Source: Filimonas lacunae (GTDB taxonomy: Bacteria; Bacteroidota; Bacteroidia; Chitinophagales; Chitinophagaceae). Taken from it: 64,000 nt of DNA. Both the position numbers and the translations under genes were made by a program. Position 1 is the stretch's first letter. The number at the start of each line of letters is the position of its first letter. The stretch lies in contig NZ_AP017422.1 of assembly GCF_002355595.1 (NCBI RefSeq), positions 5,398,823-5,462,822 on the forward strand, given 5' to 3'. The notes beneath the pieces are model-generated. The model was not told the origin of the DNA and did no database searches. It saw only the letters and a list, made by a program, of their open reading frames with translations. This document shows positions 53,381 through 61,954 of this stretch, in pieces.

Positions 53381-54247
53381 ATGAATAAGAAACCCCTGAT
53401 TAAGCACGGTTGGTTACGTGTAGTAGTTTTTGTGATCCTTATTGCCACGCCAGGCTTACTGGTGTTTTTGCCGGCGACACAACAATATATTCCATTTAGG
53501 GAGCTGTATGACACTACCGGGATGAAGTTTCCGATGTTATATCTATCCTACCTGGTCACCAACGGCTTTATGCTGATTCCCGCTTACCTGTTTTGCAGGT
53601 TCGTAGACCGCAGATCTTTTTCAAGCCTGGGGTTTGAATGGGGCGAGTATGAAGCCGATGCGTGGACAGGCTTTTTTGCAGGCATTAACCTGTTATCTAC
53701 CGGAACGTTAATACTGCTGATAACAGGTACTTTAAGCTTATCTATCGTATTGCCTAATTTCCTGCAATTGTTATATGCCATCATCTTTTTTGCCATTGTA
53801 GCATTTGTAGAGGAGATTGTAGGTCGCGGTTATATACTCCGCAACCTGATGCAGAGCCTGCCACCCATGTATGCTTTGGTTATCAGTGCGCTGATATTTT
53901 CATTACTGCACCTTCCTAACCCTACAATCGGTATTTTACCATTGGTGAACTTGTTTGCCTTGGGTTTATTACTGGGCATCAACTTCATTTACACACAAAA
54001 CCTTTGGTTTGGTATATTCCTGCATTTTAGCTGGAACCTGGTTCAGGGTCCATTGCTAGGCTATTCCGTAAGCGGCATTAGTGTAAACAGCGTACTGCAG
54101 CAATCACTGGATGGTTCTGATATTATCACCGGAGGAAGCTTTGGCTTTGAAGGTTCGGTGGTAGCACTGGCTACAGTAATTGGTGTTACTTTCTGGGTGG
54201 GCGACATGTACAGAGGTAACAGTACGAAGTTGCAAAGGATCAAATAA
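53381..54247 (+). CDS. CPBP-family intramembrane glutamic protease
   Basis: 288 residues, about eight membrane helices. The CPBP (Abi/CAAX) motifs are VEEIVGRGYI (E-E-x3-R, about 142-151), LIFSLLHLPNP (His, about 170-180) and FLHFSWNLVQGP (His-x3-N/x, about 208-219). The family includes CAAX-prenyl proteases and bacteriocin-immunity proteins; in bacteria the substrate is mostly unknown. Sits 43 bp after the EEP gene; the sequence does not show whether they share a transcript. Confidence 0.9.
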   Translation: MNKKPLIKHGWLRVVVFVILIATPGLLVFLPATQQYIPFRELYDTTGMKFPMLYLSYLVTNGFMLIPAYLFCRFVDRRSFSSLGFEWGEYEADAWTGFFAGINLLSTGTLILLITGTLSLSIVLPNFLQLLYAIIFFAIVAFVEEIVGRGYILRNLMQSLPPMYALVISALIFSLLHLPNPTIGILPLVNLFALGLLLGINFIYTQNLWFGIFLHFSWNLVQGPLLGYSVSGISVNSVLQQSLDGSDIITGGSFGFEGSVVALATVIGVTFWVGDMYRGNSTKLQRIK

Positions 54248-54302
54248 TTACATAATTCGTTGGCAATCATAACCTGTTTGTCAAATGAAACATTTACTTG
54301 TA

Positions 54303-54334
54303 GGAGGTATCGTTTGCGGTTCCTCCTTTTTTTA
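54303..54334 (+). terminator. Terminator of the CPBP gene
   Basis: Stem AGGAGG / CCTCCT with a 14-nt loop, followed by T7, about 55 bp past the CPBP stop. Confidence 0.75.
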
Positions 54335-54390
54335 TGACAATTCCTGTCGACTCCCCTACACGTTAAGTCATGTAAGCTGGTATAAAAGAC

Positions 54391-54423
54391 AAACCGTCTC
54401 ACTGGAAACAGTTGAGACGGTTT
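54391..54423. repeat. Hairpin A at the 3' side of the Rpn gene (inverted copy of the rRNA terminator)
   Basis: The outer stem AAACCGTCTCA / TGAGACGGTTT is perfect over 11 bp; CTG-GAAA-CAG forms an inner stem with a GNRA-type tetraloop and one bulged T. On the minus strand it is followed by GTCTTTTAT and so can terminate the Rpn transcript. The 25-base core (54395-54419) equals the rRNA-terminator hairpin at 55498-55522 in inverted orientation, except one compensated base pair. Confidence 0.8.
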
Positions 54424-54444
54424 GCTTTAAGTATCATTATAAAC

Positions 54445-55233
54445 CTAAGCTTCCAGTTGCTTTTTCAGTTCCTGTAATTTAGCCATTTCAAGACCAGTAA
54501 TTCGTTGTATTAAAGGAAGGTTTAAGCCTTCTTCTATCATTTTTTGGGCATCCAATAAGCGCCCTTCCTGTACCCCTTCCTGGAATCTCAGGTCTTGTCT
54601 TATATCTAATGTAATAGGCATATTCTCCTCCTCTTTTATTACTTGTTTTTGTAATTCATTTCCACGTAGTTGAGATAACACCTCCAGGTGTCTCACTTTT
54701 TCTTTAAAATAAACCTGATCTCCTTTTGTTAGTACTTGCAATTTAATCAAAATTTCCCGGATCATCCGCTCTGGTTCTTTTCCGGTTAGAATAGCCAGTA
54801 TTAGCTCCCCAGGGTCTTTTGAAGATAAAAATACGTTGGGAGGAACATCGCGGATGTCTATGACCGGACATTCGTAATGCAAGCCAAAAGACTGAATATT
54901 TCCCCTCATACTCATCGCTTTATTACCTACGTAAATCACGATACCCATTACCTCACATTCATAGCTTTCCATCAGTAAAATGTCATACTTAGCCATCCGT
55001 AAAGCCATGCTTTTGTCATTCGTAGATTGCCACTCAATGTGGCATAGAAATTTGCGGCCATCAATAGTTTCCACTTCCAGTGCCGTATCAGCTTCTCTTT
55101 CTACAATCGTTTGCTGTATTCGTGGTGGGGCAGCTCTCACATACTTTGTGTCTATGCCCAGTAACTGCTTTAATAAGTTTAGCTTAGGTTCTCTAACACT
55201 CTCTTTAAGAATTTTATCATATTCATTTGCCAT
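54445..55233 (-). CDS. Rpn-family recombination-promoting nuclease / putative transposase (PD-(D/E)XK)
   Basis: 262 residues from ATG 55233 (MANEYDKILKES; the frame begins 5 codons earlier). N-terminal PD-(D/E)XK nuclease core: EREADTALEVET with the first Asp, then GRKFLCHIEWQS with the catalytic E-x-Q pair; the later YDILLMESYECEVMGIVIYVGN strand completes the fold. The C-terminal ~80 residues are charged and helical (EEGLNLPLIQRITGLEMAKLQELKKQ), as in RpnA-type proteins. These promote RecA-independent recombination in vivo and are mobile in Bacteroidota genomes. No transposon ends were found, but two inverted hairpins flank it. Confidence 0.85.
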   Translation of the reverse strand: MANEYDKILKESVREPKLNLLKQLLGIDTKYVRAAPPRIQQTIVEREADTALEVETIDGRKFLCHIEWQSTNDKSMALRMAKYDILLMESYECEVMGIVIYVGNKAMSMRGNIQSFGLHYECPVIDIRDVPPNVFLSSKDPGELILAILTGKEPERMIREILIKLQVLTKGDQVYFKEKVRHLEVLSQLRGNELQKQVIKEEENMPITLDIRQDLRFQEGVQEGRLLDAQKMIEEGLNLPLIQRITGLEMAKLQELKKQLEA

Positions 55234-55248
55234 AGGCACAGCAATCAT

Positions 55249-55497
55249 TTAGCTAATGAATATACAGCGCTATTATATTCAGAAGTTATTCATTTTGTTC
55301 ATTTTCAACAGATTAGCATTTCGTTGAATGAAATAATTGACTGGTAGTTTAAAAGAAAGGTATAAGAATGGAAGGGTAAAATACACGCTTGAGTAGCAGC
55401 AATAAATACAATAAAATAGGATATAATTGGGAAGAGTCAAGCAAGCAGGATATGTTGGGATAACCCCAGTCAAGATGGGATATATACAAAACAAAAA
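55249..55497. other. Non-coding spacer between Rpn and the rRNA operon
   Basis: About 250 bp, AT-rich; no gene, promoter or repeat recognised besides the hairpin that begins at 55498. Confidence 0.5.
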
Positions 55498-55522
55498 CGC
55501 CTCAACTGTTTCCAGTGAGGCG
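55498..55522 (-). terminator. rRNA-operon terminator hairpin (copy B)
   Basis: On the minus strand, downstream of 5S: stem CGCCTCA / TGAGGCG, inner CTG-GAAA-CAG stem with tetraloop and one bulged T, then TTTTTGTTTTG. Strong terminator at the end of the operon. Its core is an inverted copy of hairpin A (54395-54419) with a T-A pair changed to C-G. Confidence 0.85.
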
Positions 55523-55534
55523 CTTTCAATAAAT

Positions 55535-55644
55535 ATGGCAACTACCTACTCTCCCGCATTTCTTTGCAGTACCATCGGCCATGAGGGGCTTAACTTCTCT
55601 GTTCGGTAAGGGAAGAGGTGAACACCCTCGGCATAATCACCATA
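55535..55644 (-). rRNA. rrf: 5S ribosomal RNA
   Basis: About 110 nt. The minus strand reads TGGTGATTATGCCGAGGGTG at the 5' end and GGGAGAGTAGGTAGTTGCC at the 3' end, with the conserved AGTTAAGCCCCTCATGGCCG core. Last gene of the rRNA operon; ends are approximate. Confidence 0.92.
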
Positions 55645-61159: not shown

Positions 61160-61479
61160 TATAATTACCCCTTTTTGCAAATATTTTCCAGAGAAGAAGA
61201 CTGATAAGCAGTCAATTGTTCCATGAAGCAGCTGGGAATAAGTTATTGCTTTGGGGAGAGGGTACGGAAGTAGGGCCGGTTACCATCTGCCAGCCACCTA
61301 AAATACAATATCCCGACTGAGGGTTTTGGCTATTTTTAGGTCAGTGTATATTTTAATACTAGAGTCCGACCTTTTTTTAAGCTAAACCTTTTGGTCAGCC
61401 CCATACCAGGAAAAATAAAGCGCAATGGCGACAAGCTTCCTGAATACCTGCATAAAGAAAAGTAGCATTTTCTGCCCTC

Positions 61480-61840
61480 ATATTCTAACAGACGGGTACT
61501 TCGTCCTAGCGTACGAGCTGCTCGCTCTATAGGACGAGGCCTGGGAAAGCACTTTCGAGCACCTGAAGCGTGCTTTTTTCGTGCCCATACTATCGGCCAG
61601 GCTGCTGATTCGTGCAACCCCAATGCTCATTCTATAGAGCGAGCAACTCGGCCGCAGTGACGGGCAACTCGCTCTATAGAACTTTTTGCTCAGCACAACA
61701 GACGAGCAGCCCATCCTACAGAGCGGGCTGCTCGTCCTACAGAGCGGGCCGCTCGTCCTATAGAGCGGGCTGCTCGTCCTATAGAGCGGGCTGTTCGTCC
61801 TATAGAGCGGGCTGTTCGTCCTATAGGACGAGGCTACGGA
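61480..61840. repeat. Minisatellite with CTATAG-centred dyads
   Basis: Non-coding region between rrn and FKBP genes. Five 21-bp units GAGCGGGCTGCTCGTCCTAYA start at 61721, 61742, 61763, 61784 and 61805. The array ends in a perfect 14-bp palindrome CGTCCTATAGGACG (61817-61830). Related dyads lie upstream: CTCTATAGGACGAG near 61525, and TCTATAGAGCGAG (61631-61643) with its exact reverse complement at 61668-61680. Because 21 is a multiple of three, long spurious frames run through on both strands (heptads such as YRAGCSS). Confidence 0.85.
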
Positions 61841-61954
61841 AAGCTCCTTTTTGAAGGGCAACCAGTCACTTCCAAACAGCTGTTTTCGAAACCAAACTCC
61901 TTGCTATCACTGCATTGGAATGATGCACCCCGAAGAATGTAGCATATATATAAA

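Follow-up and report, generated by a model that had tools for sequence, protein, structure and literature searches.

An Rpn-like nuclease gene (rpn) of Filimonas lacunae, located in the 64,000-nucleotide stretch of DNA analyzed here (the window), stands between the terminator hairpin of an rRNA operon (rrnC) and an inverted relative of that hairpin, and the block formed by the 5S end, terminator, rpn, and far hairpin is present at three rrn ends of the genome (rrnC, rrnD, and rrnE). The favored explanation, which is considered fairly probable, is that rpn acquired its terminator as an inverted copy of that of rrn, that copying driven by rrn then carried the block from one rrn end to others, and that two of its copies decayed. 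The locus contains the following features (window positions).

54302..54334, + strand: terminator-like hairpin (AGGAGG..CCTCCT-T) beyond the convergent CAAX protease gene at 53381-54247, read by eye and absent from the hairpin scan listing
54390..54424, - strand: hairpin A, which probably acts as the 3' terminator of rpn and is an inverted relative of the rrn terminator; its GAAA loop reads on the + strand
54445..55248, - strand: rpn gene, 267 aa, distant Rpn/YhgA-like nuclease
54445..54621, - strand: probable internal RpnS-like frame, 58 aa from the conserved Met210, with GAGGAGGAGAAT just before it, proposed by analogy to the genes described in PMC10327210
55287..55303, - strand: ATGAACAAAATGAATAA motif upstream of rpn (by eye)
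55378..55493, - strand: spacer after the rrn terminator, common with rrnE, and with rrnD down to about 55435
55494..55526, - strand: hairpin B, rrn operon terminator (core 55498-55522), with TTTTTGTTTTG directly after it
55533..55644, - strand: 5S rRNA gene (Rfam), last gene of the rrn operon, followed by hairpin B

Hairpins A (CGTCTCACTGGAAACAGTTGAGACG, + strand, 54395-54419) and B (CGCCTCACTGGAAACAGTTGAGGCG, - strand, 55498-55522) are inverted 25-base hairpins that share a GAAA loop and a bulged T, and their single difference over these 25 bases is one compensated pair (T-A vs. C-G). All of this had been described in the first-pass annotation and was found in place, except that A is longer than had been described; its full extent (54390-54424) comprises 15 pairs with one bulge and starts 20 bases beyond the rpn stop codon. 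Both hairpins fold far better than shuffled sequence, and the folding energy of A is -26.2 kcal/mol on the + strand and -24.2 kcal/mol on the - strand (z of -8.0 and -7.8, respectively); therefore, A could serve transcription in both directions. The CAAX protease gene has its own T-tailed hairpin (54302-54334, by eye), so A was rejected as the terminator of that gene and is probably not needed by it. Hairpin B ends the rRNA operon, as had been proposed, since it lies directly beyond the Rfam 5S gene, and its core is identical in all five rrn operons of the genome. The region at 61478-61861, upstream of the rrn operon, is repetitive, and its open reading frames on both strands give SSYRAG-like and SPLYRT-like repeats.

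The proposal that an Rpn-type nuclease is encoded between the inverted terminator copies held for the open reading frame at 54445-55248, but with distant, sub-threshold scores. Its protein matched the NCBIfam models RpnA (3.1e-6) and TIGR01784 (4.3e-5), both below the curated cut-offs, and no Pfam family was listed for it at E up to 0.001. With the limit raised to an E of 1, five of five aligned paralogs matched Transposase_31 (PF04754), the best at 4.6e-6 and the window copy at 0.001, below the gathering score. PADLOC returned no match for the window protein. These significant yet sub-threshold family scores make the protein look like a distant relative of the Rpn/Transposase_31 nucleases. 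Residues D11, D54, E72, Q74, and R84 are invariant across the five aligned rpn copies, and, when matched by eye to the residues of RpnA that have been examined by mutagenesis (D11, D63, E82, Q84, and R94; PMC5350276), they follow the same order, with equal E-x-Q and Q-to-R distances and a D-to-E distance of 18 vs. 19. A Met at 206-210 follows GGAGG in all six full-length rpn copies read in the genus, and the C-terminal part of the protein weakly matches the solved RpnA-S (7th0, E 0.04). Judged from these sequence features, the gene looks like that of an Rpn nuclease with an internal RpnS-type start. Rpn genes have been reported as phage-defense toxin-antitoxin genes with an internal small product, RpnS, and RpnS genes that stand on their own have been described downstream of rpnE and rpnC (PMC10327210). 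By analogy, the window rpn probably encodes a DNA-cutting, phage-fighting protein. The window copy thus resembles the known Rpn genes (YhgA-like, Transposase_31, PF04754; RpnL/RpnS) in the order D, D, E-x-Q, R with similar spacing, in an apparently conserved internal start for a small C-terminal protein, and in the occurrence of several paralogs per genome, whereas it differs in its divergence below the curated cut-offs and in its position beside rrn, with a hairpin that appears to be rrn-derived and to have been copied with rrn.

A motif like TGAAYAAAATGAACA was recognized by eye upstream of the six full-length rpn copies read (window, L043, L044, L045, L095, and L096) and of one small open reading frame, and a TATWTTTA-like sequence follows it after approximately 22 bases (by eye). 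This motif is probably part of a shared promoter or operator. The small open reading frame is a stand-alone RpnS-like one of 59 codons (L044; window genome G000, C1:3145654-3145839, - strand) that lies directly upstream of a full-length rpn paralog, begins at a Met matching the internal start of the long rpn genes, and carries the rpn-type motif upstream.

The hairpin shared by A and B is rare in the genome. The 15-base core CACTGGAAACAGTTG has six exact copies in 7,814,405 bases, namely one in A and one after each of the five 5S genes; an Rfam search of the genome gave these five 5S genes, with B after every one. Four further copies of the core with one mismatch all lack the stem, and one of them (L009) has seven pairs. 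The shorter core CTGGAAACAG has 94 genomic copies, all of them examined in context; the 94 are distinct when wider context is included, and those of rrnB and rrnE are identical in the narrower one. Nine of the 94 lie in hairpins with at least 11 further pairs, and these are the five rrn terminators, A, E' (the far hairpin at rrnE), L073, and L083. Likeness to B was also scored among 41 terminator-like hairpins from 410,874 bases of this genome, a biased sample of overlapping loci in which hairpins with 16 common bases were merged and B was thereby included within A; A scored 21 and E' 18-19, and the next best scored 12. It could be argued that CTG-GAAA-CAG is simply a favored terminator apex in this genome and that the likeness arose by chance, and L073 and L083, two other strong hairpins with T-rich tails, do carry the shorter core. 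However, the small share of core copies in such hairpins and the scores of L073 and L083 against B (12 and 10, compared with 21 for A and 18-19 for E') make such convergence very improbable. The possibility, raised beforehand in the first-pass annotation, of a common terminator unlinked to Rpn was contradicted by the confinement of the exact core to the five rrn terminators and A, and the census of the 94 shorter-core copies led to its rejection. On these sequence counts, the likeness between A and B is neither chance nor that of a common terminator.

A protein search of the whole genome found seven rpn places, comprising the window gene, three other full-length genes (54-56% identity), and three C-terminal pieces. 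C-terminal pieces stand directly after the terminators of rrnD (32 residues, 78%) and rrnE (42 residues, 79%), on the rrn strand, and each is followed by a hairpin related to A (D' and E', respectively). The 1.6 kb downstream of 14 rrn ends in six genomes contained an inverted terminator copy in two cases, rrnC (score 21) and rrnE (18), whereas shuffles reached at most 13 and 12, respectively. An rpn remnant with an inverted relative of the hairpin after it thus occurs at one rrn operon besides that of the window, which also contradicts a common terminator unlinked to Rpn. The pieces at rrnD and rrnE are unlikely to be live RpnS genes, since the internal Met is missing in both; the rrnE piece has an in-frame TAA, and the rrnD piece has no in-frame upstream ATG or GTG, only a TTG within the rrn tail.

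Alignment showed that the homology among rrnC, rrnD, and rrnE starts inside rrn and continues without interruption through the terminator, the spacer, and the 3' end of rpn up to the far hairpin. Identity in the spacer is 92% of 48 bases between rrnC and rrnD and 89% of 107 bases between rrnC and rrnE, and that of the rpn 3' end is 80-85% over the three pairs. Past the far hairpin, over 60 or 200 bases, no pair of the three was clearly above shuffles; the closest was rrnC with rrnD over 200 bases, which was equaled by 57 of 300 shuffles, and these two may share approximately nine more bases past the hairpin (by eye). Convergent genes, which we take from their translations to be amylase-like at rrnD and DUF4397-like at rrnE, end 27 and 21 bases from the hairpin, respectively. 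Likeness to rrnA or rrnB stops 35-42 bases past the start of the terminator core (80 and 87 bases of the sequence under comparison). Sharing follows another pattern in the 5' flanks, where rrnA and rrnE have approximately 530 more common bases than other pairs. Copies of the bounded block occur in this genome beside rrn only, and no target duplication was seen around them by eye.

rrn operons are known to undergo concerted evolution and duplication. The present case is similar in that the terminators are kept alike in five copies and the identity extends past the terminator, but it is unlike in that the tract contains a protein-coding gene and ends at an inverted terminator copy, in flanks that are otherwise dissimilar. 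Gene conversion between rrn ends, one of the origins suggested earlier, fits the data, the block at the three ends being continuous with rrn. Under the favored explanation, an rpn gene would have come to sit beside one rrn operon, and the intrinsic rpn terminator A would descend from an inverted rrn terminator copy that arose in this lineage, for example by template switching. Recombination begun in the 5-kb rrn homology may then have run past the terminator, copying the block to the ends of rrnD and rrnE, and would have ended at or in the far hairpin, where the convergent neighbor gene ends. Only the 3' end of rpn would have survived later decay at rrnD and rrnE, while the hairpin there persisted through paired changes. 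What we infer from this arrangement is how the inversion arose, which way the copying went, and that A now acts in termination. Template switching has been reported to make or rewrite hairpins (PMC8794818), and the mutations described there resemble the present case in reverse-complement copying and paired stem changes, but differ in that the distance here is approximately 1.1 kb and the mechanism is an inferred one. One point against the favored explanation is that the copying would have to resolve in non-homologous flanks.

The paired changes among the hairpins bear on the history of the inverted copy. In the orientation of the GAAA loop, pair 5 is C-G in B and T-A in A, and pair 8 is G-T or G-C in B and C-G in A; the T-A pair is common to A and D', and E' has G-C at pair 3. 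The rrn terminator of a second species of the genus (G002) has C-G at pair 8, as in A, and is without the bulged T. A, which combines the bulged T of this genome's rrn terminator with the outer C-G pair of the relative's, thus appears to have been copied, in inverted orientation, from an earlier version of the rrn terminator of this genome. On the other hand, the stem of D' resembles A (score 15) and scores only 11-12 against B (9 when inverted), within the range of shuffles (up to 12). D' (L041, G000 C1:5594918-5594954), which follows the rpn piece at rrnD, also has an apex, CTTGGAGAAAG, that resembles the apex of A turned round, as if flipped. Both its weak likeness to B and its flipped-looking apex count against the favored explanation. 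Furthermore, the likeness between A and E' is 13, below those of A (21) and E' (18-19) to B, so that each is nearer to B than to the other, which also fits a later overwriting by B. In such a history, rpn would originally have had its own terminator hairpin, and template switching, or conversion between the inverted repeats at their distance of 1.1 kb, would later have replaced its apex and inner stem with those of the nearby rrn terminator. The retention in D' of an A-like stem with a different apex and the reported rewriting of hairpins by template switching (PMC8794818) agree with this history, but the outer stem of A is also common with the rrn terminator of the relative, which fits copying of the whole terminator, and overwriting is considered unlikely.

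The draft genome of G002 was read over the 20-kb ends of contigs 1-8, all of contigs 9-20, and two rpn stretches, a sample that could lack small contigs. It contained five rrn 3' ends, four of which match rrnA, rrnC, rrnD, and rrnE by neighbor genes; the match to rrnE is based on an FtsX-like second gene, the first neighbor being absent there. The fifth showed no match to rrnB in the 1.8 kb compared. Neither rpn (tblastn at 1e-4) nor an inverted terminator copy was found at any of the five ends. The comparison with an empty site proposed earlier thus succeeded in part: rpn and the hairpin are absent at the sites matching rrnC, rrnD, and rrnE, but, with approximately 870 bases of other DNA in it, the one matching rrnC does not represent a clean empty site. 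The site matching rrnD has a hairpin that belongs to the amylase gene itself. At these three sites, blastn between the two species gave no match between the rrn tail and the neighbor genes. The spacers are still alike within the window genome and none matches across species, and the copying is therefore probably younger than the species split. Alternatively, the absence of the block in the draft G002 could reflect three losses. A third genome of the genus (G001) gave no rpn match, and its rrn terminator is also different.

Two further observations were made in G002. The amylase-gene hairpin (L109, about 160-205) and E' of the window genome (L042, about 2621-2658), which lie at different rrn loci, both contain CCGCAGCTGTT, by chance or through terminator exchange. 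In addition, three rrn ends of G002 (L111, L126, and L102) share approximately 20 bases past the terminator tail, CTCAGGCAAACACTGC, so that identity past the terminator occurs in the relative too.

No such hairpin occurs in the 300 bases after each of the other five full-length rpn copies in the genus, where the best likeness to B is 7, 8, 12, 8, and 9, compared with 21 at the window gene (shuffled stretches of approximately 1.6 kb reach 12-14), and their own hairpins look unrelated. No rRNA was detected by Rfam in the 6.5-13.5 kb stretches around these five genes. This Rpn subfamily was found in seven of 244 genomes drawn from the family (E up to 1e-10; 15 matches), including the window genome and G002. 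No rRNA (Rfam) was found in nine of the 15 loci, seven from more distant genomes with flanks of approximately 1.5 kb and two from G002; the loci outside that check were L199 (the other half of a split gene of G176) and five of the window genome. A protein scan of further genome contigs added two loci, distant relatives on one contig of one metagenome-assembled genome. A general link between Rpn and rrn was rejected, since rRNA was absent near the other rpn loci searched. In the loci examined, the hairpin thus accompanies rrn and does not accompany Rpn genes as such.

A mobile unit that targets or carries the hairpin, the other origin suggested in the first-pass annotation, accordingly found no support. 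Such a cassette, in which the rrn terminator hairpin would be recognized or cut by Rpn and the gene, with an inverted hairpin on either side, would insert beside rrn, would account for three copies that all lie beside rrn with homology ending at the far hairpin in each, and for the missing block at the matching sites of the relative, and two separate entries of rpnC into one genomic locus have been suggested for Enterobacteriaceae (PMC5350276). However, neither the hairpin nor, in the stretches read, rRNA was found at any of the other five full-length rpn copies in the genus. Moreover, the DNA common to the three ends runs on from rrn without a break and shows no target duplication by eye, and RpnA of E. 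coli reportedly shows little if any sequence preference (PMC5350276). The cassette is regarded as quite improbable. RAYTs are REP-associated tyrosine transposases, Y1 HUH enzymes accompanied by many dispersed REP hairpins. The window locus resembles REP/RAYT systems in having a nuclease gene beside inverted hairpins, whereas its protein matched Rpn families only in these searches, and its hairpins are rrn terminators, not a dispersed repeat. It is also rather doubtful that the rpn gene rides on rrn operons as a hairpin-bounded module that spreads from end to end, with the inverted terminators acting both as terminator and as a stop for rrn-primed copying, perhaps helped by the nuclease.

A search of titles and the beginnings of abstracts in open-licence PMC found no paper on rpn beside rrn with inverted terminators. 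Under the favored explanation, a protein gene would have been drawn into the copying unit of the rRNA operon and would have acquired a terminator derived from rrn; the paired changes are informative about the age of the inverted copy. If the hairpin boundary is general, defense genes could increase in number at rrn ends with no need for a transposase, and the limit of such copying would be marked by terminator hairpins.
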